From assembly GCF_963678975.1 (NCBI RefSeq), contig NC_089280.1, forward strand, positions 1,454,501-1,518,500: DNA of 64,000 nucleotides, written 5' to 3'. The DNA comes from Dysidea avara. Taxonomy: Eukaryota; Porifera; Demospongiae; Dictyoceratida; Dysideidae. The notes beneath the pieces were generated by a model. It ran no database searches and was not told where the DNA came from. It was given only the letters and a program-made list of their open reading frames with translations. Shown in pieces: positions 23,604 to 64,000 of this stretch. A program made the translations under genes and the position numbers. Position 1 is the first letter of the stretch, and each line of letters opens with the position of its first letter.

Positions 23604-23604
23604 T

Positions 23605-26212: not shown

Positions 26213-26439
26213 TTAATTCAGTAATGGATTATGAAGAAGACTGTTGTGAATTGTGTAATTTTGCATTCTGCATAGTAACACCATCAACTTTTCAGTACAC
26301 ACATGAAACTGATCAAAGTGCAATGTGCATACAGACTGAGAGTCACCTACAATGTACATTACTGGTGTCTTTAATAGCTGTCAAATTCAGTGCATGGATT
26401 GTTGTTATACACTTGATTGCATTATACATCAGAGTGAAC

Positions 26440-27180: not shown

Positions 27181-27182
27181 CA

Positions 27183-29805: not shown

Positions 29806-29813
29806 CCGAAAAT

Positions 29814-30530: not shown

Positions 30531-30534
30531 TTTG

Positions 30535-32600
30535 GGAAGGGTTACATAGTAACAAAGGTAACAAAGTAACAAAATGTTATAAAGTGTAGTAGCTAGCTAC
30601 ACTGTGCCCCTGGGCTCCAACAGCAAATTGCTGACTAGCCAGTGCTCCAAATTGTAATTCTAAACATGAGTCTGGGAACGACAAGCAAAATCACGAATGA
30701 AAAACCTAGTGGAGATTGTATTTAGATAACTAACAAAGAAGCTAACATTTGAGCAGAATGGATTTAAAAAACGGAATGACAAATGGAAACCATCAAACTG
30801 GGTAACTAACAGCCATTTCAGTATGTAACTAGTAACCAGCCTAAATCAAGATGTAAGTTGTATAGTGATGAGAGTAAAATGGATTTGACAAGTACGTGTA
30901 GTATGATATGTGGTAACTGGGTAACTACCAAACAAATTTCAGCATTTACAGAGTAACAGAAATTTAACTAGCCAAAATAAAGATACAAGTTGTATGCCAT
31001 GAACGTGAGAGTAGAATGGATTTGACAAGTAGCATCATATGTGGTAACCATGTAACTGGGTAACTCCCAGCCAAATTTCATTATTTCTAGAGTAACAGAA
31101 AAGTAACCATCTGAAATAAAGATGTAAGTTGAATACCATGCACGTGAGGGTAGAATGGATTTGAAAAGTAGCTTCATATGTGGTAACCATGTAACTGGGT
31201 ACCTCCAGCCAAATTTCACCATTTACAGAGTAACAGAAAAGGAACCAACTTAAAAGATGCAAGTTGTATACCATGCTTGTGAGTGTAGAATGGATTTGAC
31301 AAGTAGCATCATATGTGGTAACCATGTAACTGGGTAACCTCCAGCCAAATTTCACCATTTACAGAGTAACAGAAAAGTACCCAGCTTAAAAGATGCAAGT
31401 TGTATACCATGCACGTGAGGGTAGAATGGATTTGACAAGTAGCATCATATGTGGTAACCATGTAACTGGGTACCTCCAGCCAAATTTCACCATTTACAGA
31501 GTAACAGAAAAGTAACCAGCTTAAAAGATGCAAGTTGTATACTATGCACGAGAGGGTAGAATGGATTTGACAAGTAGCATCATATGTGGTAACCATGTAA
31601 CTGGGTAACCTCCAGCCAAATTTCACCATTTACAGAGTAACAGAAAAGTAACCAGCTTAAAAGATGCAAGTTGCATACTATGCACGAGAGGATTTGACAA
31701 GTAGCATCATATGAGGTAACCATGTAACTGGGTAACCTCCAGCCAAATTTCACCATTTACAGAGTAACAGAAAAGTAACCAGCTTAAAAGATGCAAGTTG
31801 TATACTATGCACGAGAGGGTAGAATGGATTTGACAAGTAGCATCATACGTGGTAACCATGTAACTGGGTAACCTCAAGCCAAATTTCACTATTTACAGAG
31901 TAACAGAAAAGTAACCAGCTTAAAAGATGCAAGTTGTATACTATGCACGAGAGGGTAGAATGGATTTGACAAGCAGCATCATATGTGGTAACCATGTAAC
32001 TGGGTAACCTCCAGCCAAATTTCACCATTTACAGAGTAACAGAAAAGTAACCAGCTTAAAAGATGCAAGTTGTATACTATGCACGAGAGGGTAGAATGGA
32101 TTTGACAAGTAGCATCATATGTGGTAACCATGTAACTGGGTAACTCCCAGCCAAATTTCACCATTTATAAAGTAACAGAAAAGTAACTGCTCAAAATAAA
32201 GATATAAGTTGTAATATTGTACTCTTGTTTGTATATGGTGAGAGTAGAATGGATCTGACAAGTGGAATGATACTTTATTTGGTAACCATGTAACTGGGAA
32301 ACTCTCAGACAAATGTAGAGTAACAGAAAAGTAACCATCCAAAACAAAGATATAAGATACCGTGAGAGTGGAATGGATCTGACAAGTGACATGATATGTT
32401 TTAACTATTTAACTGGGTAAATCCCAGCAAAATTTCACCATTTACGTATGACTTAACAGAAAAGTAACCACAGTCATACGTTGTATAAAGCTAAAGTAGC
32501 TACCACAGAGATGGCTTGCCAGTATCATTTTTGGTAACCACACAACTGGCCTACTTCCAGTTAATTGTGAAGTAACAATGAATGCTGTGTCTTATTACTA
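30535..32600 (-). repeat. 136-bp satellite, left array (minus orientation)
   Basis: Units contain, on the plus strand, GGTAACCATGTAACTGGGTA, CCAAATTTCACCATTTACAG, AGTAACAGAAAAGTAACC and AAGATGCAAGTTGTATAC, repeating every 136 bp or so. The core (about 31300-32160) is homogeneous; units diverge toward both edges, and the outer edge fades into GTAACAAAGGTAACAAAGTA at about 30550. This is the same satellite as at 57230-64000, in reverse. The short reading frames in each unit overlap and are not genes. Confidence 0.95.
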
Positions 32601-35096: not shown

Positions 35097-38000
35097 TCAT
35101 TCTTTAGTATTGAGTTTCTTTGCATGTATTGGTCTACGCCCATGCAAGTAACAATAAGAAATATATGCATTTCGCCTTTTCACCATGCGATGTATGTAAA
35201 AATGATGGTGGGTTTTTGGCATAGAGCAAACAATTTTTTTAAACCTGGACATCCATGCAAAAGTTTGCTCACATGCCATGGTGTTAAAACTTGGGTTCTT
35301 TTCTTTGATTGGTTGTGGATCATATAGGGTTTTGCACCTTGGATCACAGTGGTTGTTGATGTGAAGGCTGTCTATTATCTTATTTATATCTTTCCAGATA
35401 TACTTGAGATCTCCTGTGTAGAATACAAAACAACCACATGTCTTTAGATCCATTTAAAATGCCTGTACATACCTGGTAAGGGCAAATCATTCCTAGCAAC
35501 TTTCAGGTTATTCACATGACACATGTTGTCATATGCCAGAATTACTTCTTTCCAAGTTCTTCTTGTTTTGTTACCAAATGCCGCAATAAGCCATGATAGC
35601 ATTAATAAAAACACCTGGGCTGGCCCTTCAGATGTACATAAACAATAGTATTATTGAGAAAAGAATGCAACAACACTTATTAATGAATATTTATATATCA
35701 GTGAAATTTACTGGTGGATCTAGGATTTCTAAAAGGGGTGTATGAAACTTACTAATTAAGCATCCAAGGACATGGCTTAAGAAAATTATATACTTTTAAA
35801 GTGAACAGTTTTCATTTACTTACTTAAATTGCAAAATAAACAAACTAGCTAGCTAACTGCAAGGCTAAATTTGTAGCTAAGTTTCCCTTCTGATTACTCT
35901 ATTAGAGCAGCTAGTTGACTTCTCTATATGAATAGTTTGTTGACTTCTCTATTAGAGTAGTTCAATCCATTTTAATGCAATGGGTGGTGTCAATTGCAAC
36001 TGAGTAGGCTTCTGAAAAAGAATTTTGGTTGAAACTACCAAAACCCATGTAGATCTGCCACTGAAACTTTAAGAGTTCAAATTGCAACAAATGTTCGGAA
36101 AAACTTCAAGTTTTTTTTGTAGTTATTACATTTAAAATCTTTAGTGATAAGGTTCTACTCGACCATGTTACCTTGATGTCAACCAAATAGGCAATAACTT
36201 ACTTTTTGTTGTGCGATAATGTTATATAGTGTTTTACTTTAGTGTGCTTTAGTCAACAAGTATTATTATGACAATTCAATTTGTGACCAGATTTTACAGA
36301 ACCGATCCAAATCGCACATCAGGCAAAATCAAACTAACACCACCAGTGGATAGCTACACTATCGTACTACAAGTTTTGACCCTCAGCACTACTCAAACTA
36401 CACGAGGCTGGTTTTTACACACGTCTTTTCTGGGTGGTGTGGAGTGCTCAAATGGCGGTTTCAGGCCTTGTGAAGGACCTGGCTTGGCAAGAGTCAGTGG
36501 TTTACTGGTGGACAGCCTTATAATGTTGGCCAGACGTGTTCTCTGTTGAGTTTGCTACATATCAGCCACTAAGGAGCCAGCACAGCCCTGTAATCTCGTA
36601 TCTGGACTCCAATCGTGGTCTGCCTCCATTTTGAGGTCTATCTCTTGCCCTCCCCGCCACCCCCACCCTCCACCCCTTTGTGAGCACTCGTGATACTACT
36701 TCGCTCGTCCAACTGCTCAGATTTTCTATCTTATTTGGCGGGAAACTGTACAAGCAGCTACAAGTACTGGAAGTGGCTTGAAAGGTAAAAGATTGATGCA
36801 TCTTTGGTGTAAATTTCATATGCGTGCTTTCTATCCTTGGAGAGGTATGCTGGCTTCAATTCTTTAAAACCGTTTATCTCGGAACTTCTAATGTGCGATT
36901 TGGATCGTTTTTCCAAAATCCAGTCACATTTAATGATCTCCCTTTATTTTTTAAACCAGAATGCTGTAAACAAGCATAGATGTAGTGCTCATAAGTAGCT
37001 CATTACCACTACATATGCTAGTTAGGACTACGTCCACTTTCACAAAATAATTCTATGTGGTCCATGCATGTCCAGTACAAATGTAATAGATGTATGGTAG
37101 CTACAATCCCCACAAACAAACATAGTGTGCTCAAGACACCTGTTTAACACATCTATATCAAATTGTAAGCAATCCTAGTTTGGGAGAGTTCACTTCATAC
37201 TACTGTATGATATATTCAGTGTTTGTTGGCAGTGGGTATATTCACAATGCATTTGAACCTTAAAAACTAGTCAGTGCATAATGCAGGCAATCTCTGTAAT
37301 GATAAGGAATTCACAGAAAAAAAAATATGTGGGTACTTAGGCCACTTCAATTTACATTTAATTATTTGTTTCTTGTGCACAACTGACCCAACAATTTTCT
37401 ATACAAAATATTTGTTAACCACATGATCACAGTACACTTTGTGTTAATGTCACAAAGGGATTGCCAGAAGTAAGGCAGAGTAGTTATCTTCACTATATAG
37501 TGGGCTACTGACAAGTGGCACAGCAATCACAGTGTAGCTTAGCTACCATTTGAAATGTAGATTAATTTTCTGAAGTCATAAATGGTTAATTTTATTATGT
37601 CGACCTGACGACCCTCTACTTAGCTGGTTTTGGTCCGAGATACAAAAGATTAAGTAGAAGTGGCCTTATGATAAACAAAAAAAAATCCTGGCTTCATATT
37701 TAGTTAGTTTGTTACTGTAAACAATTTGTAAACATGTTACAATGCTGTGAAATTAAACCAAGGCCTTAGAACTTACTGGTACAGGGGCTGCCACATTTGT
37801 ATATGTCCACCACCACTGGCACACATCCAAATCCCTCTTGTCCATTTTTGGAGTTTCTTTGGTTGCCCCGTGTCTTTATTGCACTGTGTTTTTGTTGCAG
37901 CCACTTCTTTACAGCTGTCTAATTGTGATAAACCTGGATACTGTTCCAGAGCTGATGAAATGCCTGTAAATAACAGTATTGTTACAGTTATACAGTGTTA

Positions 38001-41000
38001 CACATAAAGCCATATATGTGTTAACATTTTCTTCAATATTTACTTTTAAATATATGTATTATATCTAGTATTTATAAAGTCTTCACTATAGCTACACGAT
38101 GCTGATTGTGTAAGCGTGTACAATCATGCACCTACCTTGACAATCTGCAGCAGTAAGATCTGCATTGGAATCAGCTGTCGGGCGCTCTTTAGAAGCTACA
38201 TTAACAAAAATATAGTATTATTTTCTGTATTTTATTCTTGTCAGGCACTACTACATATTACTTAAATTATGTTCATAATACAGCATGTTAGACTTCAGAT
38301 CACACCAGTCCACACTCTTTAGCTGTGGCATATAGTATATGCATAACTAGTCTTCTGTATGAAGCTAGATCTTACTATAGATGCATTCTTTAAAAACTGA
38401 AAGTTGTTAATGACAATGTCAGATAGCACTAAGCACATGTAGTACTAAAAATTTAAAATTTGTATATGGATCTTTCACAGATCATATAATTATTGGAAAC
38501 TGGTGATGATCTCTCACACACAGCCAATTACTCTTGAACCGCATGCAGTAGTGGTTCATAACAGAGATCGCCTAATAGAGCATATGCCTAAACAACCTCT
38601 TTAATTGATTTTCCAGTAACAAAAAGTTAATTGAAATAAGTCTAGTTAGTAACTATGAAGTCTAAAGGAACTGAAGAGGAAAAAAATTTAATTCTTGAAA
38701 TACACCAATTTCTTCATATTCATCTCATATATAATAATTTTTCTATATACAGGAGTACAGGAATAAATGTGGGAATAAAAACTGCATAAATTTGTCATTC
38801 TTGTGTCCTTGACTTATCTAAAAGTGTGATTCGGTATGATAACATCCACTTTGAAGCTGTTTTGCTTCCTTTAGGTTCCCTTTGCCATTGAGTAGCTATA
38901 GCTCGTGGTAGGGAGGCTATGGTTTGTGCACAATACAGCATTAATAGTTTTACCAAGTTGTGCTAGGTGTCACTATACTCATTGGATTAATTAACAATGA
39001 TCTGATTATATCATAAGGCATGTCAATTTATTAATAGAATCAAGGATCAAAAAAGTCAAGACATTAAATAATCCAAGAACTACAATGGAGTGTATGAAGC
39101 CCTTTAAAGTGTAACAGTTCTCTATCCAGGTTCAATAGGTATGATACATATCCAGTGTGATGGTAACTGTGAAACCTGCTTATTGTTGGATCAAAGTTCT
39201 TGAACTTATTACTATAGGCAGGTTGTTGGTCACATTGTACACAAATGGCACATTTAGAGATATACAAGTTGGTTGGCTTAGACAAGTGACCTTATCGAAC
39301 AGTGACCCAATTAGACAGGTTTCACTGTATTGTGTTTGTTGGATTATACAAAGAGATCAAGACGGATACATAAATAATAAGCCACGGCACAGTAAGTTGT
39401 TTAGCCTTGATGAGGAACTATAGTAACAGCTTGCTTTACAATATATAGATGATAAACCTGTACTGTGTGATTGAAGTGTTTATTAATCCAAAAACTGTGT
39501 ATTTCTGTGTAGTCTTTAATAATCAATTGAGTCTGAATAGAGTACTCTAAAGGGCTTTACATACTCCATCGTGCTGACATTTAACTATTGTCATAGCAAT
39601 CTCTATTTCTCATGCTTTAATTTGCAGATCCTGGGGATGCACCAGAAGTTAATGCTCCCCTTAGTGGCCTTTATTTCTACCAGCGCTACATATGGGACAT
39701 AGCTACAATTATAGAGCTGAAAAACTAATAATTAACCAATAATTTGTATTTGCTTGCAGCTTGCTTTATGATCTACATATGCTTATGCAGCTGTTGTTAA
39801 ATACCAAGTGAAGACTTCAGTGGTAATTGCAGCTAGATTTCTGAAATCTTTTTTGAAGATCCACATACCGCAATCACCCAAATAGAGCAGTCTGCCTCAC
39901 CTATTTGAAATTCTTGGTTGCGCCTTGATTGGTTTATACATTAGTGTCATTCACAATACCTTATTTTGAATATAGTTTCAATTAAAGTTACTGAATAACT
40001 TTATAGCGGTTTTTTCTCATGTTTTAATTTATTTTTCGCTGACCCTCCGTTTATGTATTTTTACACCAGTATTATTTTGCATGGCTAAGTAAGAAAGTGC
40101 ACAAACCTTCAAGTGAAAATTTTAGAAATTCTCGTAAAGTGCAAGGTATGCCTTTTTTCCCTGCATCTTGACAATGTTCCCCACAAAAGGCCATACCAGT
40201 AGCTGGCTCATTTGGACAGGAGTCCACATACTGCAATGCTCCATCAAAGCCAGATATTTCCTTGGGAACACGATACATGCATATTGGATAACAGAGTTTC
40301 CAGTTCCCGTCTACTGCAAATAGTTTTCCACAACCTATAAATAGATAAAGTATTATTAGTACTCTGCTGCATTCATCAGCATAATAAAATACAATTCCTA
40401 TTCTGGTATATGTAATGCTGTAATAATTCAATGTGAATGGTAAACAGCAATAATATTGTCTAGGCATACCAAGTGAACAATTTGGTTAGGGTTTGTATGC
40501 AGTCACAAGCATAGGCAGCTTCAGAAATTTTGTTGACCAGTTTCCAAACCAGCTTTTTGTGAAGTTGAGACCAAAATTTTATCAAAAACTCAAGTGAGAG
40601 ACTTTACACTTTTATAAAGGCCCTATAAATTCATGTGGTTTGGTGCCATTTTAATTTGGGGATATACTCCAAATCACCAAATGTACTGTGTGTACAACTG
40701 TATAATACAGACCGGTGATTCCAGCGATATACTTACACTCTTTTATCGTGGAACAAAAGATATAAGCTTGTGCTTTCCCTGCTAATTATTGGGTTAAAAT
40801 GATACTGATAATATTGATTAGTAGAGCTTAATGTAAGTAGAACTATACGTACATGTATTACCATACAGTACAAAAAGGAATCTTATTGCATCTAATATGA
40901 AATCCAACACAAACACGCTAATAAAATTATGAATATTTAACCAGGCTATTTTTCATATGTGACCATTAGGTAGAAATTGGTTACTAAAGTCTTTCAACAA

Positions 41001-44000
41001 ATTTATATAATTGATGTTCTGTTCTATTGAGGAGTATGTCAACACTTGCTCTTTCATACGTCAACAATGAAAACATTTAAGATGAACAGTAGTTCTCTGA
41101 CAAATTTTAATATATGTACAAGAGTGGTGTGAGATTACATTGTCCAAAGCTGTTGCTTTGTACATACCTCTATGTTTGCATTCATCAGAACAGGTGTCAT
41201 GATCATAAATGCTGTCTGCTCGCTGTTCATCTATTAGACTCATAGCCTTCTCTCTGTCATTTGTCCTGGCAAACAAAAAATTCTCCATGTCTCTATCTCG
41301 CAATTCCAGCTCAAGTTCATAATTCCAAAATCCATTTGCCACAGTTTTACGATGGATCTCAGCAGCAGTAGAGAAACCAAAATCATTTTCATCATCTCCT
41401 ACCAAATACAAAAGTACCTTGGAACAATATGGTATGCTGTACATGCAACTTCAATATCACTTATTAAAAATCAAATAATAAACAGACTCCAAAACAATAA
41501 AATAATAAGAACAAGAAAGTGATATACAAATTACCATACTTTCCAAGCAAACCCATGCATGTGCTGCCCTACATTTGACAACTTGAAAAAATCAGCAAAA
41601 CATGCAAAGACAAATAGCGTCTGGATATTATTGTGGCATAGTTTTGTGTCTATGTAATGCAAGTTCATAATATGTGATCCAGTCTGGGAAATGGGTCTTA
41701 TTGCCTATCTCAAGACACTTTATTTTTTGCCACAAACACAAAACTACATCACTAAACTATCAAATTGTACAGTGATCACCAGCAAGGATCCAGTACTGGC
41801 TGCTTTTAGTGGGTGCTGTGGCAATCCATATGATGGGTCTGTGGCCTTGATGAAGCACTGGCTAACCAGCAGGTGGTTTTGTGAGGCTGTACAGCTCTGT
41901 GGCACTGAATAAAGAGCTGTGCTGTAATTTAACGGCGTTTTTGGTCAGTTTTATTTTGTCTTGAATGGCTTATAACTTGGCCAAATTCATATCTATGGGA
42001 TGATATTAAATTTTTTGACATGCTTCATGCCACCACTGCCCACCACCCTTAACTGAAGCTCGCCTGATAAAGCCAATCTTGGTTTTACAGCTATCTAAAA
42101 TGGTGGAAAACTTTTAAGAATGCTGTTTCTACAATGGATGGTCTAAGAGGTAAGAAATTGTTGTAAAATATTTTTATTGTTAGCTTAGCTTCAACCATTA
42201 GCTAGCTATAACACTCTGAATACTTCAAACCATCATTTCACAATGCTTTAAATAGACGATGAGAGCCTTTTCCCCAGACCACGTCACATATTGTTCCATT
42301 CTTATGAAATATAGAGCATTTTGTGATAGGGAACAGGATCTCAAGTTCATTTATTACATACTAGCATTGGTACCTGCCCTACGTGCAGGACCATGTACCT
42401 ATAATACATTATTAAGTAAAAGATCAAATGTCAGCACCACTCATACCCTACAGCATACATGGTCATATTGCTTGCCTTATACAATCTTGTGAGCATATAC
42501 CATGGGCGTGGTCCACAACTAGTTAAGTACGAACATTTGCTCTGATTGATAAGGGCATGACAGTGTGTTATTATTGCGCCTACTTTGTTTAGCTATAGCC
42601 ATTAGGCTGTTTGATCATTTTGTAAGTGTAGCTACAAGCATCTACGTACTTGCTCCTACAGTATGGAATCAGCTATTAGTATTGTGACATCCGAATACGG
42701 CTGCTCTAAAGAAAGTGTCGATATGAAATAATACTGTCTCCGTGAGTGGAGAAGAAGAAGACGATTCGTATTTGGAGATAAAAGGAAAGGTAAAGCACAA
42801 AAGGCAGACACTTGTTGGAACCTGAAAAGGCACATCCCGGCAGCGAGTTAAATATTGTGGCAAACAATCTTGATCATGCGCTGCTTCATTTGGCCTGTAG
42901 GCTTGCGACTGTGGTCAGGCAGGCAGACAAAAATTCTATTTTAGCTTTTTTTTAGAAATAGAATTTCAGCACTTTTATGGGTATTTTCTGATATATAACG
43001 TTTAAAATAAAGTTAGAAACATGAAGAGTCTTTAGTGAAATGTTTATTTGGTGCATGAAATGTTTCTAGGATAATTTTTAAGGGGATGAAATCTAGGGCA
43101 CGTACCAAATCCACTGCGATCCCTACTTAAACAGTACTATCGTACTGTTTGATAACATTGTTGTACTGTTTGATACTCGTGAAACTTTTTATTAGTTCCT
43201 ACGCACACTTGCATATGAGTTACCAAAGTGGTACATATTAGTTACCGTATTTACTTGGTTAAACGCCGTACTTCAAATAGTCACCGCATTTGAATAGTCG
43301 CCGCAACATAGGTCACCAGTTTGATAATAAACGCCGCCCTTGAATAAACACCGCGTCTTTTATTCAGGTTCCATGTATAATCGCAGTTTCTAATAGAAAA
43401 TGAAGTTACAGTGTTGCTTTTAAACTACAGGTAGTGTAGTGTGCTAAGCAAACCTACTTACGTGTTGTATAGACTGATTGGTAGCCGCACGTAAAAGTGC
43501 TGTAAGTACAATAAACGCTGCCATTGAAAAGTAGCCGCACTGATTTTTAACATAAGGCTAATAGTAGTCGTGGCATTTAACCAAGTATATACGGTATACG
43601 GGCACTTGTGCTTTGCCTGATATATACGCACTTGCCCTCAGGCTTGTGCTTATATATGAGGCAAAGCACTCGAGCCCATGGTATGTATATATAGTATACA
43701 GTACATATATACTATAGTGTATAATTAAGCACATACGTACTGTATGCAGAGTGGAAAAAGCATAATACAGTCTATGCAGGACATAGTTACCTTCCTCCAA
43801 AGTAATTGGATAAGATCGACTAAAATCTACCATGTTGATGTAATTATGATTCTGAGAGTCTCTCATAGATTCATTATAAATCTCCGCAATAGATTCAAAA
43901 CTATTCCATCCATGATGGCTGTGTGACAATAACATTAAATGGTATATGGTGCTACATATATATCAAATCTAAATATATACAGCAACTGTAGAAATTTAAA

Positions 44001-49257: not shown

Positions 49258-49411
49258 TTCAAAAGCTCTGCTTGTCTAGACTAGTAGGTTATCACGTGAG
49301 AGCCGGATATAATGAAATCTTGATTCTAGAGAAAGTGACTTCCGGTCATCTACATTATAATTAGCTAACTATCGAGCGCTAACTATAGACTATCTCTAGT
49401 GCTTGAGCGAG
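49258..49411. promoter_or_regulatory. Bidirectional promoter between the divergent KDZ-like and ATPase-PHD genes
   Basis: Only 154 bp separate the two start codons. The interval holds an E-box CACGTG (49293-49298) and an ETS-type ACTTCCGGT (49338-49346), motifs often found in bidirectional animal promoters. No TATA box is placed convincingly. Shared control of both genes is an inference. Confidence 0.55.
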
Positions 49412-52400
49412 ATGGCTGATGATTCTGCTAGAAAAGCACTGAAAGATAAGGTCGTCGTGAAGCATCAAGTGATAGGTAAGAGCATTGTCCTCAGCACTGT
49501 CACATGATTTAATAGTCTAGATGTAAATGTAGCTACACTGTAGTCACTATTCACTTCATTTGCATGCCAATATATAGGTGTCGCCGGAACAGATCAGCGA
49601 TGGCAAAAAAGAACCAATTTTTCTGTAAAGATTGTTTCGAGTGTGCAAACAGACGAGGATCCCGCCGTAGCGCCGTTTAGAGGATTCGAGTTTTTAATAA
49701 GGACAGACAATGGAATAAAGAGGTTAGCGTAATTTGATATGGTCTATAGCTAGCTGTACTGTATGGAATGGTATACAGGATAGATTGTACCCGCTATAGC
49801 TTTACACCGGCCCTGTAGCTAGCTACATCACATGTTTAATGTACATGAAGCCACTGCCATGATTCAGAAACTAATTGTTTTACTGAATTAGCTAACGGCT
49901 AAAGCACACCTGCAGACTTATGCTAGTATATAACTAGTCCTAAACACTAGACATACGAGCATCGACAATTTCAGATGCTTAATAGGACAGGCAGAACAAG
50001 ATACTCTAATAGAGCAATCAAAAAGGACTCAGAGAAGAGAGTGTGTTAGAAATAAGCGTACAAAGCCATGCATTTAGTATAGGTAACTCGGTATAAGATA
50101 TCTGGTTATAGCTACCATTTTGTCTTCCAAGTTACAGTAAGGCCCTGGCATCATGGAACCAAAGCCTGTTTACGCCCTCGGCTTGTCCTGGCCCAAAAGT
50201 CTAAGCATCTATTGGCCAGCTATAGCTGTAGTACATTTTATTTTAATCTATACACATATTATTATGCATCTTATGAGGCTGTATATTTTTTTTTTCAAAA
50301 ATAGAGTCAATTAATGTATAGTCATAATGTTACATATTTCATAGGAATTGTGTCATTTCGAATGAGGATGCCTTATCTCTAAGCAGATTTTGTAAAGCTG
50401 CAAGTGCAGTCCATCCAGACATACGGAGGTCAAAAATTTCAGACCAGCTATGGTCTCAATTTATTTTTGACATGGCTGAGGAATTTTGCAGTCTCCAGGA
50501 AGGTTTCAGAAAGAAAAAAAATGTTACTTGTATAGGGCGACAACCAGGTTCTACAACATGGGTTTTTAATCCAGACACACAAATTGACACAAATGGAACT
50601 CTGATTGAAAAGGATCAGCAATGTTATATTTGGTAAGGACATATACAATTACTTGCTCTGGCACTTTGAAGTAAAAAATAGACATGCACTTATAATATAA
50701 TCTATCTTTAACCAGTTTATAGACTTAAACAAAAGCTTACTATATAGCTTCATAAAAATCTTACTATATACTTTCCTGAGAAATATATATTATTGTAATT
50801 ACTTACTAAGATAAACAGGTATAGGATTAAATTGTGTGATAAAGGCATGTGCACCCTGTACCTCTCAACACTTCATCACAATCCTATACTGCTCTTTATA
50901 GGGTTTCATACAAAAAAAAAAGATTTTTAAGATAAAAAGCTACCACAAATCAGTACTGTAATCTAATGTATAATTTACAAGTTCTTGAGGTAGATGGCGT
51001 CAACTCCTCCTATTATGTCACTCTCATGGGAAACTCAGCCATTTCATATAGCTAGAGGATATCATAATGCATACAATGAAATGGTTAAATTTGTAGTTAC
51101 CTCACTGGAGTGGATGTATCTGTTTCAAAGTAGTATATTTGTTATATGATTTTCACTGTTCACTTGGATAGTACTGTTTGTAGGAAGCAATAATTATTGA
51201 AGAGGTTCGCAGAAAAGGAGGCATGTGAAATTTAAATGCACCTCATCTGTAAAAATGAAAAAGATCGATTCTTTTAGGCATGAGAATGAAGTTACACAGC
51301 AAGTTTTTGAAATTAAGGGTAGTTATTTTAATGCCTTCTACACAATTACCTCAGTGAATAGTTATTGAGCGGCACTTGTCACCTTTTCTGTTGATTCCTT
51401 CAATTTAAATAAACTTTTACTATTTGTTATTGTTATTGCTTTGGCTTTACAGTGACCAACACTGAATATGATTGTTGTATTGACATTTGACATTTGTTTA
51501 TATCAAAATAGTGGCATTGTTTCCCTGCAAAAAAAAAACAACAGATTGGGTGGTCAAAAACCTTTCAAAAAACAGGAACAGATTTTTTGACATTGGTCAT
51601 GACCAATACACAATTTAAATTGTTGCACATTGATTAATGCTAACATCACTATATGGGGTTTTCTGGAATTTTGTTTTTGAATTTTCATGGTCTCATGCTA
51701 AAGGGAGAGACCCTTTCACTAATTATGTACTGACATAAATGCTAATTATATTTCATTCTGCAGGGTGCCTGGATACAAACCACTACCTGATATTGACCAA
51801 TATCTAATTCCAGCTGAAATAGAACTTCCTCTGTCACTCAGACCATTTAAATATTTATTGCGAGCATCAAAGGAGTGTTTACAAAACAACTTTTTAAGTT
51901 GTTTTGCTACCATTGCTGGTAGTGTTACATTATTTCATTATGAATTGATCTGCGAGTAGCAAGACACGTGTCCACTAATACTGTGCTATAGTACTTCCTG
52001 TGGAACTGGTACAGATTTAATATTTGCTAAGCCACTAATATTTTGAAATTCTCTGTTAGGTAAAACAACGGCATTGCGAATTGCCTTGAGTATCTATGGA
52101 GGATTGAATAGAAACATCAACAGCCATAAAACTTCTTCATCGTCCTTGCTTATTCAGACTGCCTTAGGAACAACGCCAATTGGTATGTCACAATAAGGCG
52201 TATCACTTCACTTGTCACATCTTTGAGTATCAGGGTTATCACCAGTTCATATTGTACTTGTAGAAAATAAGTGTACTACTGCACGGACAATGCAACAAGT
52301 TGTGATCATTCAATGTAATGCTTTGATTTACAACATCAAGGGCATGACTCAGAGAAACAATCCAATTCATTGATGCATTGTCCCATTGACACCTATCACT

Positions 52401-55400
52401 TTCACTTTACTGCAAATATTGAAATAAAGCAAAAATTACTGAAAACTAAGAGTCGGATTAACCTGGATGCTCCAACTACGATCTCAAAAAATAAATGTAT
52501 TGTCTTCACACAGGCTGTAGGGTTCTACGAACCTTCAGCATTTTGTGCTGTTATCCCGTAATGAATAAATAAATAAAACCTGTAAATACTCTAAATGGTG
52601 TTATTCAAATATCATAAGGCTTCCAAGTTGTAATTTTGATTTATTTACAACTACTATACAGGGCTTGATGATGTTCAAAGCAAATTGAAAATCGAAGAAA
52701 TATCTGTTGAATTATTTAACGGGTTTTCAAAGAGAACTTTAGGAAGTGGATCAGTCAAACCTAAAACATCTATTATTGTTACCTCCAATGAAGCATTTTA
52801 CAACTCTGAAAGGTGAAGAGTAACATTTTATTTATGCTAATGTTCAATGTGCCGTGTTACTGTATTTCAGGAATACTCAGAGAATTATCCATGTCCCATT
52901 TTTTCCACCGGACAATGATTTGACTAAATCTGAAAAGCATGAATTGGAAGTGAAGCTTAGAGATGTGCTTAACAATGCATCTTCTTGCATAGGAGAATTC
53001 ATTGCTTTGGGTCAGAAATCCATGTCTGAAAATGCAACCAAGGAGCTTGAAGAGCAGATCATTCCTTTTGTTAGCAGTCAATTGCATGGTCTATCCTACC
53101 GAGTAGTCAAGGGTTATGCAATGATTGTAATGATGATGAAACTGGTAAGACAAAGAAATGCTTGTTGGGTATTTAAAATTATGTCTATGTTACACACATA
53201 GTTGTGCCGGATGTCTGGAAAAGTAGTGGAATATAAGGAGGTGGAGAGTTTCTTTAAAGAAAAATGGGCCCCGATCATTGTTAAACTACATCAGCCTGGT
53301 GGAGAGAACTTTTACTCAATTCTTTCAGAAGTAACCAGTGGTATGGAGAGTATGACCACAGAGAAGGTATGATCAACGGCTTGCATTACAGCTAAGTTTA
53401 TAGCTAATAGTTGACAGAATTTTTAAGAAAAGTGCAAGTTAAAACATTCAATTAAGTATAAAATTTATGCTAGTATTTTGAATGATATCAAATTATAATA
53501 TATCCTATATTCCAATTAATAAAACAGCACATGACACTTTTTTCAACTCAATTTGGATTCCCTTAGTTTCTCTGTTGCCTTGAAAATCAAAAGCTAACTT
53601 TTTTACGGATCTACAAACTACTACAGTTTCCACTTTAATGCACACATTAACATAACAGTTGCCATTTGACATGTTGCATGCTATTTGTACAGTCCAAGTA
53701 TCATAACTCCTTTTCCTTTTTGATCATAGTTTTCTCACACAGTCAGACCAAGATAGTACGTAATAGTTTCCTTATAGCAACTATCAAAAGAAACATGTTA
53801 TTTTCACAGATACAACTTTGATTATATTATTTCTCATACTCTTTGTTTGTACACAAACTTAACCAAAAATGAACTGTACCTATGCCAGTTATAATATCGG
53901 GTTGTATAAGACAGACCAACCGTATGAAAAATTATGCTTGCTAAGAATCATAGAAAAATCCTAAGGAATACCATCCATTCATGCAATATATATTATGTGG
54001 TGGATATTTAATTCTCACTTCATGTATAGCCATGGCTATTGGCTTTCAATTTAGAGCTACAGGCATATCTAACCTATACTTTTAGATCAATGGTTCAATA
54101 TAAATTCCTTCTTTTTGTAATTTTATTATGTTTCTGATATTCCCGTATGTAGTCTGATTCAGTACAATAAAATGCTAAACCAGTAATAACTGTTATGTGG
54201 CTCATACATCAGTTTGATAGAATATATATCTAATGCTGTTACTTTGACTTGAAGGTTAAATTTTCAACTGTAGATTCAGCAGATTTTAAGAACTGATGTG
54301 ATAACAACAAAGGTTACAGGAAATTGTGCAGCTATACACATGGCTTCAGCACGGAAGATGATTGTTGGCCTTACAGATAGACAGATAAATGATGCCATAA
54401 TACAAGCTGGAGGGTTGATAAACTTTCAGGTGAAATATCTAGGAAAAGCAAGCAAGTCCTTCCTGATTCCACATACTAGTATCAGAACTGACATCTTGAG
54501 TCGTTGGAGTCAACTGTGTAAGTAGAATTTATTTAACGTATTAAAAACCCATACTGTGACAGCTGACACAGCTCAGTGACGGAAAAGCACTGATACAGCT
54601 AGTATCTGCACATGTGCATAGATACATATTTACACTGCAGATACACCCGTTCAATTGATTTAAATTATCTGGCATGAAAAACTGCACAATCGTGTATGGG
54701 GTAAAATAGTGTTCTGTCCACAGACTCCACAATATTAATGAAGCTTTGTTGGAACACGTTTCTGGTCAGAAATCCAGTTACTATCCAGTTTGATCCCCCT
54801 ATGTTATGTGTGTATATTTATCCCGTCACCATTCAGTGGTCCCAAATTACTTATTACTGTGATTGATTATCAAGCACAATAGTTTTATGAAGGTAGTTTT
54901 ATGGTGATTTAAGGTCATTGGTTGGAGGCTGCAAAGCAGGCCACCCTGGAGAAACAGGACCAACCCAAGCCAACTTTGAATGAACTCAATATAAACTTAT
55001 CTTCATACAGATGGTGAAAGATATTGTTATGCATATTAGGCAACCTCAGTTAGTGGTAAGGTCAGGTTCATAGGCGGCTCTATGGGGACGTATGGGGGCA
55101 AGGCCCCCTGTTGATTTTTGCAACTTGTAGAAATGTTGGGCAAATTGTAGCATAGATTGGCATTGTTTGGTTTAACTTTTAATGGTATCAGCATCATTTT
55201 AAGCCATTTTCAAGCCATTCAATTGCAAGATTTTTACAGCTTTTGGGGGTTGCACCTCTATACCCCCCTGGAAGTTCATTTTATACTGCAACCACAAGTG
55301 CTGTGTCACATTTAATCCACTGCACATGTTCAAGTGGCTGCTAACTTGTATTCTTCCATTGGTATTGCTTACTAATATTTTGTCACTACCGCATTATTCA

Positions 55401-56901
55401 GCTACCTGTACTTACAGATTATACCATAGAGCCCATCTCTATTACACATATGCATTGTTATCTGTATCAACAGTATGCGTTTTGCCAACAGAGTATTTCA
55501 CAAAGTTATATCAATGGTGGAATTGATGTGTAGCATTTTGTTATGCACCGTTCCACTTCAGTCGGACCACACTGAGAACCCAACATCTACAGCTGTAGTG
55601 TCAAGTGCTGCTTCCTCCAGATGTAGCTATACATTTGTTTTGCATATTAATAGAGCACACTGACATATGTAGTGCACCAAGGCATAAAGTACCAAAAGTC
55701 TGTATGCATAAAGCTAACACTTAAGTTGTTTACATTTTGATCACATAATATTCCCAGTATGGGCTTCTTTATATTATGTAATATTTTCACTTTATATATA
55801 GATTTGGGAACTACAACAGATGACGATCAACAGCTACCTGAATTAGAAAACGATGCACTTGGGTCTACAAATGAGAATGGCTCTGAAAGCAATTGTCAGC
55901 CAACTAGGACTTTGAGTAATGCAGATACTGAAGATGAATCAGAGTTTAGCAGCAGCACCAATTTTGATAATGTTTCTTTATCTGCTAGCATCGAAGATAC
56001 TCAGGAGCAACCAGTATGTGTTAATTTTATACAATAGGACCTACAAAATAAGTATTTTTTTAGAATGATGACAATAGCCTTTTTCAGGAGGGTCAGAGTA
56101 CTGCATCACCTTCAGAAAAATGCATCTTCAGTGACAGCGATGATTGTGACAAGGTTTATATGAAATATTCAGTAAGAAATGATGACAATAGCCTTTTTCA
56201 GGAGACTCATGGTACTGCACCACCTTCGGAATCAAGCATCTTTAGTGACAACGATGATTATGACAAAATTTTATATGAAAAATTCGTAAAGAAGTGTCAG
56301 AGGTCTTACAAACTTAAGACGTTTGTGAAGCCTCACTACAAAGGTTTGTATGCATAGTTTGTAGGTGGTTGATACACCAGATTTGTGATTGCTGCAATGA
56401 AATTAAAGTGTACATTCTTGCAAATATCAGTTAGCATACAGTTCACCCAGGTTGTAACAGACACACTGATTATTCTAATCACTAATTCATAGCTATATTT
56501 ATATTAACAGGTACATTGAGAAAGAGGGTCATTAACTCCCCAAGAAATAGAACTATTATAAGAAAAGGTAAGTTTGCATCGCCAATATTAGTAGCTTTAT
56601 TTGTAATAATCATGTTGGTACATTTAATATAATAACTATCACTAGATTGCATAATGTGCACACTTTCCTTGTAGAACGTGTTCCTCTTGTGTCAGCCAAA
56701 CAATCAAGCAAAAGTTTGATAAAGCCTACCCTGGTTCCAGATACATGTGGTGCAACAACTTGTATTATTTCCAATTCAACAGCCAAAAAAATCGACTGGG
56801 TGAAATGCCAAAAGTGCAAGAAATGGATACATTTATTTTGTATCAATCTTATGGTCAAGAATTTACCCAAAGTTTTTTTTTGCAATAACTGCAATGAATA
56901 A
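49412..56901 (+). CDS. P-loop ATPase (AAA/helicase-like) with C-terminal PHD-type finger (13 exons, 824 codons, one in-frame TAG)
   Basis: Exons: 49412-49475, 49578-49722, 50345-50632, 51764-52008, 52060-52182, 52662-52812, 52871-53144, 53202-53366, 54274-54517, 55802-56013, 56064-56343, 56511-56567 and 56675-56901. All introns are GT-AG and the frame closes exactly. Walker A is TSCGTGKTTAL, split by the exon 4/5 junction, with Ser where the first Gly is usual. PIGLDDV may be Walker B, SIIVTSNEAF sensor 1 and NTQRIIHVPF an arginine finger. This arrangement recalls DUF927/SF3-like ATPases; that assignment is tentative. An acidic linker with a tandem peptide duplication leads to a zinc finger (CGATTC, VKCQKCKKWIHLFC, FFCNNC), PHD-like, which would bind histone tails. 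An in-frame TAG at 51957-51959 (codon 231) lies in exon 4. Using the donor GTAGTG at 51919 instead removes the TAG and most of the P-loop while keeping phase 1. Head-to-head with the KDZ-like gene. Confidence 0.75.
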
Positions 56902-57229
56902 TAATTAATCTGAATTAAACTGATGCAATATTTTGTGTGATTTAATGCTCTTTTATCCCTGCACAATCCAATCTTGTGAAATTAATAATAATAAATGAAT
57001 AGTTGAACTGTTTATAACGTATGTAGATAAGTTTAGTGTGAGTTTTAACTTAACTGCTGCTGCATATATATATTACACAGCCTAACAACGTCAGCCTTAT
57101 AGCCTGAAAATACTCACATAGGCTTAATGTATTACATCTCCTGCTCTGTATATGCTATAATAAGTCTGAGTATACACAAGTGGTACAAATTATGGGGTTC
57201 TTATGATCAAATTAAACTTTAAAGATATA

Positions 57230-57675
57230 AAAAGTAGAAATTTGATTGGAAGTTACCCAGTTACATGGTTACCACATATGATACTACTTATTAAACCTAT
57301 TCTGTTCTGACGTACATGGTATACAACTTATATCTATAGTTTGGCTTGTTACTTTTCTGTTTCTCTATAAAATTAATGGTGAAATTTGGTTGAGAGTTAC
57401 CCAGTTACATATTATCCACTTCTCAAATCTATTCTAATCTAACGTGCATGATATACAACTTGCATTTTATATCGGCTGGTTACATTTGTGTTACTCTGTA
57501 AATGCTGAAATTTGGCTAGGAGTTACCCATTTACATGGTTACCAAATTTGATGCAACTTGTCAAATCCATTCTACTCTCATGTGCATGGTATACAACTTA
57601 CAACTTTTTAGGCTGGTTACTTTTCTGTTACTCGGTAAATAGTGAAATTTGGCTGGGAGTTACCCAGTTACATGG
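57230..57675 (+). repeat. 136-bp satellite, right array, inner diverged units
   Basis: Three to four degenerate units (GTTACCCAGTTACATGGTTA, GTATACAACTTA, TTTCTGTT) lie in plus orientation, opposite to the left array. They are the inner edge of the array, cut by the GGGGCGGATCC element at 57676. Confidence 0.9.
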
Positions 57676-59402
57676 CAGGGGCGGATCCAGAATTTTCCAA
57701 AGGGAGGGGCTAAGCTGGAAGAGGATATACATATTGGTAGCTAGGTAGCTCAAGAAGTATTGGTGTCATAAGAACATTAGTGTGTGAAGCCCACTAGCAT
57801 GCGAAGCATGCCAAACTAGGGGGGTCTGGGGCATGCCCCCAACTAGGAAAATTTTGAAATTTAGGATATTTATATTGAATCTGGGAGTGTTTTCAGGACT
57901 TTTTAGCATGTGATTTTCAAGGCTGATCCAACCATTAGCATCACAATATTCTAGCTAGTTACATAATAAACACACGCTGATAGTTACCACTATTTAATGG
58001 ATCAGCTGCCTTGGTAATTATAATAAAATGTGTAAGGTGCAAGGGTAAACAGCAACCTGGTGATAAAGAGTGATCCATCAAAGTTACCCATACAGCAGAT
58101 TGCCAATAGACTGTACACAGCTATGTGAACAGATTCAGGAAGCGGAGGCTCTGAGCTTGTTTTCTCCTATTGGTTTTTATAGCTACTAGGAGGATGGGAC
58201 CTACATCTACACTGACCAACTAATATCTTACAAAAACTTCCCTCTATATGCTAGCTGAAAAGTAGAATGATTACAATTATGGGTTTGATGTCAGTTGGTT
58301 TTTTTCATCAAGGTCTGTTGTAATATCATCAGTCATCAATACCCTCTAATGTTAATCCCAGGCCCGTACACAGGATTCTCAAAAGGGGGGTTATAAATTG
58401 AATTGGTAGGCAATCGAGGTCAGACACTGAGAAATGTCTAATATTCATTGTCATGAAAGTAGCCACATTCTACAAGATGATGGCCTTTATGGGTTATTTC
58501 AAGCAAATTTCCATTAGTTAGTACTTTGTAGCCAAGTAGCTACTTGTAATCAGCACTAGAAAGCATATGTCAAATGTACCTTTAAATAAAAAAATATAAG
58601 TACTGTTATAAAATAGGAACCCCCTTGAACACCCCTGCATGCCTGAATCCAATGCCTCATGCCTGAATCCTGAATCTGATACAGGCCTGAATCCAACCTT
58701 GCCCAGGAAAAAGACTAGAACTATATCATGACTGCTAACGTTATGTGCAACACTGCATTCTTCTGTGCTGCGTCTTGTTTTGCTTAAAGCAGTTAGCTAC
58801 AAGCTTTGTGAAGTTGGGTGCAACTAAACTGATATTCCGTGCAGATATAATCCACTTCATGATGTAATCACACCTAGAATAGAGGGTATAGAATGGTTGG
58901 GTGAATAGGCCATGGCTAGTCTACTTATCAGATTGTTGGCCATACATGTGGTACAGCCAGCTTGGCAAGATGGCTGAGTTGCTGAATACTGTTAACAAAA
59001 TCACACTTTGAAAACATCATTATAAGTCACATAAATAAACAAGAGCTAAATATTTTAGTTAAGACTTACCTCTTATTCATAGCGGAAAATACCTGCCAAT
59101 TGACCATCTAAAGGCATTAAAGCAAAACCCACAATACAAAGTTTTGTAGCTACGGAATTGCAACCCACAATTGAAATTATTTTCTGGAGGGCCTGGGGAA
59201 CAAAGGATAAACTTCTTCTACAATGATATTAACCAATAGGTATAGTATATAGACATTAATAATGTTGTTAGTATTTTTTGTTTCTTAAATTAAGTTTGCT
59301 TTTGACTAACATAGAGGGTTTTGGCTATAATATAACTAAGTACTAGTCAATACTGGAAGGGGGAGGCTTCAGCCCCCCCCCCCCCCCCCCCATCCGCCCC
59401 TG
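57676..59402. mobile_element. GGGGCGGATCC-family element inserted in the satellite, 5-bp TSD CATGG
   Basis: It begins CAGGGGCGGATCCAG and ends CATCCGCCCCTG after a run of about 19 C. CATGG is duplicated at 57671-57675 and 59403-59407, and the satellite consensus TTACATGGTTACC supplies the empty site. The 1727-bp interior shows no transposase frame and may contain nested pieces (GGCCCGTACACAGGATTC near 58362). Confidence 0.85.
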
Positions 59403-62400
59403 CATGGTTACCACATATGATACAACTTGTCAAATCTATTCTACTCTCATGTGCATGGTATACAACTTACATCTTTTAAGCTGGTTACTTTTCTGTTACT
59501 CTGTAAATAGCAAAATTTGGCTGGGAGTTACCCAGTTACATGGTTACCACATATGATGCTACTTGTCAAATCCTTTCTACACTCACATCCATGGTATACA
59601 ACTTGCATCTTTTAAGCTGGTTACTTTTCTGTTACTATGTAAATGGTGAAATTTGGCTGGAGGTTACCCAGTTACATGGTTACCACATATGATGCTACTT
59701 GTCAAATCCATTCTACCATCTCGTGCATAGTATACAACTTGCATCTTTTGAGCTGGTTACTTTTCTGTTACTCTGTAAATGGTGAAATTTGGCTTGAGGT
59801 TACCCAGTTACATGGTTACCACATATGATGCTACTTGTCAAATCCATTCTACACTCACATGCATGGTATACAACTTGTATCTTTTAAGCTGGTTACTTTT
59901 CTGTTACTCTGTAAATGGTGAAATTTGGCTGGAGGTTACCCAGTTACATGGTTACCACATATGAAGCTACTTGTCAAATCCATTCTACCGTCACGTGCAT
60001 GGTATACAACTTGTATCTTTATTTCAGCTGGTTACTTTTCTGTTACTCTGTAAATGGTGAAATTTGGCTGACCCTCACATGCATGGTATACAACTTGTAT
60101 CTTTATTTCAGCTGGTTACTTTTCTGTTACTCTGTAAATGGTGAAATTTGGCTGGGAATTACACAGTTACATGGTTACCACATATGATGCTACTTGTCAA
60201 ATCCATTCTACCCTCACGTACATTGTATACAACTTGCATCTTTTAAGCTGGTTACTTTTCTGTTACTCTGTAAATGGTGAAATTTGGCTTGAGGTTACCC
60301 AGTTACATGATTACCACATATGATGCTACTTGTCAAATCCATTCTACCCTCACGTGCATTGTATACAACTTGCATATTTTAAGCAGGTTTCTTTTCTGTT
60401 ACTCTGTAAATGATGAAATTTGGCTGGGAGTTACCCAGTTACATGGTTACCACATATGATGCTACTTGTCAAATCCTTTCTACACTCACATGCATGGTAT
60501 ACAACTTACATCTTTATTTCAGCTGGTTACTTTTCTGTTACTCTAGAAATAATGAAATTTGGCTGAGAGTTACCCAGTTACATGGTTACCACATATGAAG
60601 CTACTTGTCAAATCCATTCTACCATCTCGTGCATAGTATACAACTTGCATCTTTTAAGCTGGTTACTTTTCTGTTACTCTGTAAATGGTGAAATTTGGCT
60701 TGAGGTTACCCAGTTACATGGTTACCACATATGATGCTACTTGTCAAATCCATTCTACACTCACATGCATGTTATACAACTTGCATCTTTTAAGCTGGTT
60801 ACTTTTCTGTTACTCTGTAAATGGTGAAATTTGGCTTGAGGTTACCCAGTTACATGGTTACCTCATATGATGCTACTTGTCAAATCCATTCTACCATCTC
60901 ATGCATAGTATACAACTTGCATCTTTTAAGCTGGTTACTTTTCTGTTACTCTGTAAATGGTGAAATTTGGCTGGGAGTTACCCAGTTACATGGTTACCAC
61001 ATATGATGCTACTTGTCAAATCCTTTCTACACTCACATCCATGGTATACAACTTGCATCTTTTAAGCTGGTTACTTTTCTGTTACTATGTAAATGGTGAA
61101 ATTTGGCTGGAGGTTACCCAGTTACATGGTTACCACATATGATGCTACTTGTCAAATCCGTTCTACCATCTCGTGCATAGTATACAACTTGCATCTTTAT
61201 TTTGGCTAGTTAAATTTCTGTTACTCTGTAAATGGTGAAATTTGGCTGGAGGTTACCCAGTTACATGGTTACCACATATGATGCTACTTGTCAAATCCAT
61301 TCTACCATCTCGTGCATAGTATACAACTTGCATCTTTTAAGCTGGTTACTTTTCTGTTACTCTGTAAATGGTGAAATTTGGCTGGGAGTTACCCAGTTAC
61401 ATGGTTACCACATATGATGCTACTTGTCAAATCCTTTCTACACTCACATCCATGGTATACAACTTGCATCTTTTAAGCTGGTTACTTTTCTGTTACTATG
61501 TAAATGGTGAAATTTGGCTGGAGGTTACCCAGTTACATGGTTACCACATATGATGCTACTTGTCAAATCCATTCTACCATCTCGTGCATAGTATACAACT
61601 TGCATCTTTTGAGCTGGTTACTTTTCTGTTACTCTGTAAATGGTGAAATTTGGCTTGAGGTTACCCAGTTACATGGTTACCACATATGATGCTACTTGTC
61701 AAATCCATTCTACACTCACATGCATGGTATACAACTTGTATCTTTTAAGCTGGTTACTTTTCTGTTACTCTGTAAATGGTGAAATTTGGCTGGAGGTTAC
61801 CCAGTTACATGGTTACCACATATGATGCTACTTGTCAAATCCATTCTACCGTCACGTGCATGGTATACAACTTGTATCTTTATTTCAGCTGGTTACTTTT
61901 CTGTTACTCTGTAAATGATGAAATTTGGCTGAGAATTACCCAGTTACATGGTTACCTCATATGATGCTACTTGTCAAATCCATTCTACCCTCAAGTACAT
62001 TGTATACAACATGCATCTTTTAAGCTGGTTACTTTTCTGTTACTCTGTAAATGGTGAAATTTGGCTGGAGGTTACCCAGTTACATGGTTACCACATATGA
62101 TGCTACTTGTCAAATCCATTCTACCTTCACGTGCATGGTATACAACTTGTATCTTTTCAGCTGGTTACTTTTCTGTTACTCTGTAAATGGTGAAATTTGG
62201 CTGGAGGTTACCCAGTTACATGGTTACCACATATGATGCTACTTGCCAAATCCATTCTACCATCTCGTGCATAGTATACAACTTGCATCTTTTGAGCTGG
62301 TTACTTTTCTGTTACTCTGTAAATGGTGAAATTTGGCTGGAGGTTACCCAGTTACATGGTTACCACATATGATGCTACTTGTCAAATCCATTCTACCATC

Positions 62401-64000
62401 TCGTGCATAGTATACAACTTGCATCTTTTAAGCTGGTTACTTTCTGTTACTCTGTAAATGGTGAAATTTGGCTTGAGGTTACCCAGTTACATGGTTACCA
62501 CATATGATGCTACTTGTCAAATCCTTTCTACACTCACATCCATGGTATACAACTTGCATCTTTTAAGCTGGTTACTTTTCTGTTACTATGTAAATGGTGA
62601 AATTTGGCTGGAGGTTACCCAGTTACATGGTTACCACATATGATGCTACTTGTCAAATCCGTTCTACCATCTCGTGCATAGTATACAACTTGCATCTTTA
62701 TTTTGGCTAGTTAAATTTCTGTTACTCTGTAAATGGTGAAATTTGGCTGGAGGTTACCCAGTTACATGGTTACCACATATGATGCTACTTGTCAAATCCA
62801 TTCTACCATCTCGTGCATAGTATACAACTTGCATCTTTTAAGCTGGTTACTTTTCTGTTACTCTGTAAATGGTGAAATTTGGCTGGGAGTTACCCAGTTA
62901 CATGGTTACCACATATGATGCTACTTGTCAAATCCTTTCTACACTCACATCCATGGTATACAACTTGCATCTTTTAAGCTGGTTACTTTTCTGTTACTAT
63001 GTAAATGGTGAAATTTGGCTGGAGGTTACCCAGTTACATGGTTACCACATATGATGCTACTTGTCAAATCCATTCTACCATCTCGTGCATAGTATACAAC
63101 TTGCATCTTTTGAGCTGGTTACTTTTCTGTTACTCTGTAAATGGTGAAATTTGGCTTGAGGTTACCCAGTTACATGGTTACCACATATGATGCTACTTGT
63201 CAAATCCATTCTACACTCACATGCATGGTATACAACTTGTATCTTTTAAGCTGGTTACTTTTCTGTTACTCTGTAAATGGTGAAATTTGGCTTGAGGTTA
63301 CCCAGTTACATGGTTACCACATATGATGCTACTTGTCAAATCCATTCTACCGTCACGTGCATGGTATACAACTTGTATCTTTATTTCAGCTGGTTACTTT
63401 TCTGTTACTCTGTAAATGATGAAATTTGGCTGAGAATTACCCAGTTACATGGTTACCTCATATGATGCTACTTGTCAAATCCATTCTACCCTCAAGTACA
63501 TTGTATACAACATGCATCTTTTAAGCTGGTTACTTTTCTGTTACTCTGTAAATGGTGAAATTTGGCTGGAGGTTACCCAGTTACATGGTTACCACATATG
63601 ATGCTACTTGTCAAATCCATTCTACCTTCACGTGCATGGTATACAACTTGTATCTTTTCAGCTGGTTACTTTTCTGTTACTCTGTAAATGGTGAAATTTG
63701 GCTGGAGGTTACCCAGTTACATGGTTACCACATATGATGCTACTTGCCAAATCCATTCTACCATCTCGTGCATAGTATACAACTTGCATCTTTTGAGCTG
63801 GTTACTTTTCTGTTACTCTGTAAATGGTGAAATTTGGCTGGAGGTTACCCAGTTACATGGTTACCACATATGATGCTACTTGTCAAATCCATTCTACCAT
63901 CTCGTGCATAGTATACAACTTGCATCTTTTAAGCTGGTTACTTTCTGTTACTCTGTAAATGGTGAAATTTGGCTTGAGGTTACCCAGTTACATGGTTACC
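59403..64000 (+). repeat. 136-bp satellite, right array with 1501-bp higher-order repeat
   Basis: More than 30 units follow in plus orientation and the array runs off the window. Units at 61232, 61368, 61504, 61640, 61776, 62051 and 62187 recur 1501 bp later (62733, 62869, 63005, 63141, 63277, 63552, 63688) in the same order and nearly identical, so a block of 11 units was duplicated recently. Units at 59643-59915 match 61504-61776 at a spacing of 1861 bp. A short internal duplication (TTTCAGCTGGTTACTTTTC) occurs at 60020-60130. Each unit yields an overlapping 61-codon frame that is not a gene. Confidence 0.95.

Follow-up and report, generated by a model that had tools for sequence, protein, structure and literature searches.

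Giant DNA transposons of the sponge Dysidea avara combine a KDZ-domain gene, an ATPase-PHD gene, and inverted satellite arrays

We found that two inverted satellite arrays and a divergent gene pair in the genome of the sponge Dysidea avara are parts of a single DNA transposon, which is 34,744 bp long and is a copy of what we term family A. The window (the whole 64,000-nucleotide stretch that was analyzed, C9:1454501-1518500) holds this copy from position 30493 onward, and its right end, at 65236 in window coordinates, falls outside the window; in genome coordinates, the copy runs from C9:1484993 to C9:1519736. Across the genome that we searched (550.8 Mb, 108 contigs), units with sharp ends insert with 8-bp target duplications, and both genes lie inside several such units. 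The explanation that we favor, at a probability of about 60%, is a giant KDZ-class transposon in which oriented GTAAC arrays would serve as transposase-binding platforms and an ATPase-PHD protein would act as a second mobility protein.

From the tips inward, the window copy consists of 420-bp terminal inverted repeats (TIRs), inverted arrays of a 136-bp satellite, and the divergent KDZ and ATPase-PHD genes. The left TIR (30493-30912, plus strand; tip CAGTAG TGGCTTGATATG) and its partner on the right (window coordinates 64817-65236, outside the window) are 99% identical, with agreement at 408 of 414 bases and more divergence in the outermost six. When the left flank was compared with the other satellite loci by BLAST, a single outer edge common to both sides was seen. 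In family A, one end has the tip CAGTAG-TGGCTTGA; the tip of the opposite end is TAGATA-TGGCTTGA (TAAATA in the C11 copy), and all six two-ended copies carry one tip of each kind. The window copy is flanked by an 8-bp target site duplication, CACGTGAG, at 30485-30492 and at window coordinates 65237-65244, the latter again outside the window.

The target repeat also exists in an unoccupied copy, 0.7 kb from this insertion. When the flanks of the window copy were joined, with one copy of the duplication kept, 170 of 180 bases matched window positions 29632-29811 (minus strand), and this match spans the junction: 30 of its bases come from the left side and 150 from the right. The joined flanks of a copy on C5 from a second family, B, described below, likewise match the end of a nearby repeat across the junction (49 of 58 bases, with a 5-base gap), and those of the C11, C2, and C15 copies gave no spanning match among the loci compared. 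Target duplications of 8 bp were found at 9 of 13 two-ended copies (four of six in family A and five of seven in family B), a count that leaves out two miniatures and a one-ended copy on C15 at 14.2 Mb; the four two-ended copies that lack them (C9 18.8 Mb, C2 32.39 Mb, C4 36.2 Mb, and C8 27.2 Mb) count against our preferred explanation. Taken with the sharp common ends, the TIRs, and the empty site, these duplications bear out the original prediction of a giant mobile element of more than 30 kb, with tandem repeats in inverted orientation as its termini and a repeated target sequence outside its outer edges. The limits of the unit needed correction, with the left end at 30493 rather than 30535 and the right end beyond 64 kb.

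A satellite probe gave 142 matches in the genome, and those above our threshold (identity of 75% or more across more than 100 bases) are confined to seven loci rather than widely scattered: the window on C9, C11, C9 18.8 Mb, C2 7.6 Mb, C2 32.39 Mb, C15 12.45 Mb, and C15 14.2 Mb. At these loci, the lower-lying satellite blocks are on the minus strand and the higher-lying ones on the plus strand. Four further loci (C2 23.39 Mb, C8 9.67 Mb, C2 43.58-43.59 Mb, and C6 22.49 Mb) have satellite matches that are weak or short and are not accompanied by a KDZ or ATPase match. As an inverted pair, the 420-bp TIR is present at at least eight loci, including two miniatures, and a ninth locus has a single end; this one-ended copy, at C15 14.2 Mb, looks rearranged. 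Among the matches listed, six copies have two ends, which lie 5,898 to 90,338 bp apart. In addition to the window copy, perfect 8-bp duplications flank the copies on C11 (CGTATTTC), C2 at 7.6 Mb (ACAAGAAC), and C15 at 12.45 Mb (GATGGTGT). Three of the six two-ended copies (C2 7.6 Mb, C2 32.39 Mb, and C15 12.45 Mb) look non-autonomous, since no KDZ or ATPase match was found between their ends, and this weighs against the favored explanation; perfect duplications flank two of these three. Near the right array, the C11 copy matches the window copy at 99.5% identity over 1,300 bases, and the two have a nested insertion in common.

This nested insertion lies in the right array at 57676-59402, begins CAGGGGCGGATCC, has CATGG repeated on both sides, and is an element that we take to be hAT-like; its start is also present in the right array of C11. 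A second insertion, a dispersed repeat of 653 bp at 36279-36932, lies in an intron of the KDZ gene and is absent from the copy at C15:14.17 Mb. The expectation that only one divergent gene pair would be found inside the unit therefore held for the pair itself but not for these two nested repeats. At least 40 copies of the 653-bp repeat are 96% or more identical, and some of these form short tandem runs (C11:22.33 Mb and C6:22.105 Mb). The repeat also made up most of the 37 candidates, of 11,936, that were scored in a wide DNA search, which was not informative on the interior of the C11 copy. By eye, an open frame at 46900-47190 (minus strand), inside the element, appears to be a fragment of a non-LTR retrotransposon. 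To the left of the element, the window also contains pieces of non-LTR retrotransposons at 20392-24895 and 27171-28010, with endonuclease, reverse transcriptase, and zf-RVT domains, and an inverted repeat with 611-nt arms (25155-25765 and 26347-26957) that are 93% complementary and 581 nt apart. Rfam and tRNA scans of the window gave no matches.

Five ATPase loci with the same match pattern led to family B and its copy at C5:31307834-31337388 (29,555 bp), in which the KDZ gene is on the minus strand and the ATPase gene on the plus strand, divergent as in family A. The gene order is the same as in family A and the tips are related, but the array unit is unrelated to the 136-bp satellite. This unit is 20 bp long, CAACAGTGGGTAACAGCAGG, and forms inverted arrays at both ends, as read in the C5 and C7 copies, with 26.5 and 23 units in C5 and 110 and at least 197 in C7. 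These two copies are 97.7 to 98.6% identical over three long blocks, and the KDZ gene of the C7 copy is broken. Probes made from the ends of family B found seven two-ended copies of 25.9 to 47.0 kb; they also found one left end and one right end that stand alone, along with shorter partial matches. Both genes are present in six of the seven two-ended copies, and the copy at C4 36.2 Mb has the KDZ gene only. The 8-bp duplications of family B are TATTAGTG (C5), ATGGTCAT (C7), CTTCAATG (C9 at 11.7 Mb), CATTTTGG (C4 at 6.7 Mb), and AGGCTTGT (C9 at 2.7 Mb).

A third family, C, has the same ATPase core at C3:1.165-1.173 Mb, with a divergent KDZ gene at 1.173-1.184 Mb; at C3:1165001-1173000, an exon that by eye resembles an Ulp1-type cysteine peptidase adjoins the ATPase gene. 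More families with tips like those of A and B probably exist, because a right-tip pattern built from both, with at most one mismatch allowed, has 60 matches in the genome (one for the reversed control) and only 16 of the 60 are known A and B ends. The tip variant TAGATATGGCACAATATGAGG occurs in 9 of the 41 tip matches for which letters were shown, for example at C1:29824412 and C3:11719988, and its recurrence suggests a further family. Two units with B-like tips at both ends, C2:38119839-38123195 (3.4 kb) and C2:37746408-37753278 (6.9 kb), are likely short non-autonomous elements.

The satellite arrays of the window copy were located by TRF at 30913-32187, 57228-57675, 59403-60070, and 60071-64000. 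The left array (30913-32187, minus strand) has 9.4 copies of the 136-bp unit, with degenerate copies to about 32.5 kb; on the right, an inner degenerate part of 3.3 copies (57228-57675, plus strand) is followed by the main array (59403-64000, plus strand), which continues to about 64816 in window coordinates. The two sides are inverted, with arms of up to 528 nt that are 94% complementary, in agreement with the original prediction that the same satellite lies on both sides in opposite orientations. Within these arrays, the motif GTAAC has a single orientation. The left array contains 44 inward and no reverse copies, the right array (59403-64000) contains 161 and none, the two family A arrays at 30913-32187 and 60071-64000 together contain 182 and none, and three family B arrays (both of C5 and the left one of C7) contain 158 and none, counts that are not independent because the array copies are in tandem. 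Across 24.2 kb of the family A interior, the counts are 14 and 26. The 136-bp unit contains five GTAAC motifs, a number that none of 20,000 shuffles reached; it has the 8-mer TGGGTAAC in common with the 20-bp unit of family B, and the number of 6-mers shared by the two units was equaled in 1.2% of shuffles. The left tips of families A and B adjoin a related block that is rich in GTAAC (0 of 1,000 shuffles). Three observations on this motif and its surroundings fit the preferred explanation less well: the right-tip block shared by A and B is weak, with its score reached by 63 of 1,000 shuffles; GTAAC has no orientation in the TIRs of family B (2 to 2 on the left and 0 to 1 on the right, compared with 6 to 1 in family A); and the two miniatures of about 0.5 kb (C2 12.16 Mb and C8 28.18 Mb) have TIRs and almost no array.

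These data bear on what the arrays do. In the explanation that we favor, the GTAAC arrays behind the TIRs would offer the transposase a row of binding sites and so concentrate it at each end of a very long element. The arrays lengthen and shorten independently of the tips, and the widely different copy numbers in C5 and C7 fit this explanation. The strongest competitor is a KDZ cut-and-paste transposon with passive arrays, which would have arisen as duplications inside the TIRs, changed by slippage and unequal exchange, and played no part in transposition. Array length differs greatly among copies of one family; this, the nearly array-free miniatures, and the reported growth of satellites within TIRs in Tetris and expansion of repeats in Galileo are all consistent with passive arrays. 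Two families have unrelated units, yet both have inverted arrays at both ends with the same oriented GTAAC motif, which counts against passive arrays, and we consider them possible but less likely.

The KDZ transposase gene (35097-49257, minus strand) was modeled with a probable first exon at 49257-49164, followed by exons at 45421-45295, 44965-44510, 43918-43791, 41398-41168, 40334-40107, 37963-37777, 35625-35473, and 35413-35097; the model comprises seven joined exons, one further exon, and the probable first exon. In Pfam, a hand-assembled product of this gene matched the CxC5/CxC cysteine cluster (PF18718) with 55.1 bits (cut-off, 26.9) and the KDZ domain (PF18758) with 29.5 bits (cut-off, 26.6), which supports the prediction of a KDZ-like protein. 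The KDZ match clears the cut-off only with exon 37963-37777, and the score is 20.4 bits when that exon is left out. Another protein of the same genome, P0001, matched KDZ with 32.7 bits, and P0003, P0004, and P0006 matched CxC5 and not KDZ. No Mutator or P transposase was found in the product with Pfam at an E value of 0.01, where KDZ and CxC5 were the only matches. Raw-frame Pfam scans of the unspliced gene regions missed both KDZ and CxC5, with the PHD finger as their sole match. We picked VDGNWK, YDNMCH, and CEQTF by eye as candidates for the DDE catalytic residues; an AlphaFold run on an alignment of 11 KDZ relatives, with the coral P0004 first, had a mean pLDDT of 44 and gave no usable structure. 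In the proposed mechanism, the KDZ protein would cut both ends with an 8-bp stagger in a DDE cut-and-paste reaction.

The partner gene (49412-56901, plus strand), modeled from GT-AG exons, encodes a P-loop ATPase with a C-terminal PHD finger, as predicted. A head-to-head gap of 154 bp (49258-49411) separates the presumed start codons of the two genes and is presumed to be a shared promoter. The Walker A and B residues are invariant across the three families, and the PHD finger (25.3 bits; cut-off, 24) is present in two of three ATPase family members, with the family B gene likewise ending in one. An in-frame TAG at 51957-51959 lies inside the ATPase exon at 51764-52008 of the window copy, and the matching stretch has no stop in the C11 and C9 18.8 Mb copies. 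A model with a 36-base intron around this TAG was used in the initial Pfam, PDB, and protein searches and in the genome-wide ATPase search, and it was later rejected because families B and C point to one exon with a stop. At the KDZ exon that starts at 35.6 kb, the splice acceptor is AC in the window copy and AG in family B. Given the ATPase stop and this doubtful transposase splice site, the window copy is probably dead.

The ATPase has a weak similarity to DUF927 (E value, 0.0063; 16.6 bits, under the Pfam cut-off of 22.6), and one of three family members has one to DUF5906 (E value, 0.08). Both are domains that occur beside primases. These similarities are what favors a self-replicating element with copy-out mobility, in which the ATPase would work as a replicative helicase, with the KDZ protein serving as integrase. 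Pfam scans of part of the element, including a raw-frame scan that also missed KDZ and CxC5, found neither a polymerase nor a primase domain, and we regard copy-out mobility as very unlikely. The partner foreseen in the original prediction thus stands as an ATPase, and the sole pointer to its being helicase-like is the weak DUF927 match. Protein searches with hand-assembled queries found no ATPase relatives at an E value of 0.001 among 7,992 and 7,995 word-sharing candidates scored. In a PDB profile search, the ATPase matched PHD fingers, along with phosphoribulokinase in three rows at chance level (best E value, 0.0065), and the part without the PHD finger returned three chance-level rows (best E value, 0.41).

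The two genes travel together. Three copies of family A and six of family B have both of them between paired ends, which substantiates the predicted link of the pair to the arrays. In the genome, 68 ATPase matches were clustered by hand into 21 loci, and 15 of these have a KDZ match on the opposite strand in divergent order (up to 25 kb away in 14 cases and 40 kb away in one), counts that are lower bounds because 56 of 129 candidates were scored in one search and 80 of 130 in the other. At the remaining 6 of the 21 loci, no KDZ neighbor was found, which counts against the preferred explanation. Because the ATPase is conserved and co-mobile with the KDZ gene, we infer that it is a partner in mobility; the divergent ATPase-PHD protein may be a regulator or remodeler that reads chromatin through its PHD finger. 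The least probable reading, a pair of host genes with satellite blocks on either side, or else a segmental duplication in inverted orientation, draws on the host-like appearance of intron-rich genes with a PHD finger, but it is refuted by the target duplications and the empty site, and contradicted by the sharp common ends and the copies on several contigs, and its probability is close to nil.

A more far-reaching version of our favored explanation, which we offer tentatively as a possibility, is that these elements form a separate group of giant animal transposons with a two-protein machine. The KDZ protein would be loaded on the long oriented GTAAC arrays, the ATPase would read histone marks and choose or license targets as a eukaryotic counterpart of MuB or TnsC, and each family would renew its satellite around a fixed motif.

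KDZ transposons and foldback ends are both known, and it is their combination with each other and with a partner gene that looks new. Among the titles and abstract openings listed in our literature searches, a set without subscription papers or Repbase, none describes a KDZ element that ends in satellite arrays or has an ATPase as its partner. The searched text of a 2019 review of giant eukaryotic transposons (PMC6431247) contains neither "Zisupton" nor "KDZ," and the words transposable, repetitive, satellite, and Zisupton are absent from the Dysidea avara genome paper (PMC12909245). The sponge elements show that in an animal a KDZ transposon mobilizes units of at least 30 kb, for which the complete ends, the target duplications, and an empty site are all available. 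They also tie satellite arrays to a transposase in two families that have unrelated repeats and the same oriented motif, and whether satellites begin as stacked transposase sites becomes directly testable.

Among known systems, Polintons/Mavericks are giant and carry an ATPase gene, according to the same review (PMC6431247). The sponge element resembles them in its size and its ATPase gene, and it differs in having a KDZ domain where they have a retroviral-type integrase; no Polinton polymerase, integrase, or packaging ATPase was found in partial three-frame scans (35.1-45.1 kb, minus strand, and 48.0-57.3 kb, plus strand), which missed KDZ and CxC5 too. With the foldback elements Tetris and Galileo, the sponge element shares long inverted ends with tandem repeats of varying number. 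Sections of the Galileo and Tetris accounts (PMC3573991 and PMC4079207) give a precedent for extra transposase binding sites in terminal repeats, as in Galileo. In contrast to these foldback elements, the sponge element has a KDZ transposase in place of the Mutator or P type, as well as a gene for a partner ATPase, and one C7 end has at least 197 repeats, compared with the two or three given for Galileo in those sections. The fungal Kyakuja families have the same class of transposase, and one tip of the sponge element starts with CA; those described in PMC12730594 have 7-bp duplications and no TIRs, whereas the sponge element has 8-bp duplications and 420-bp TIRs. In the same paper, target duplications of 8 bp are reported both for Zisupton and for a Dileera family, Zisupton-1_PGr. 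Zisupton and Dileera thus resemble the sponge elements in the KDZ domain, the cysteine cluster, and the length of the target duplication. No TET/JBP domain was found in the Pfam scans, which covered part of the sponge element. What sets the sponge elements apart from Zisupton and Dileera is their size (34.7 kb in family A and 25.9 to 47.0 kb in family B), their ATPase-PHD partner, and their inverted satellite arrays.
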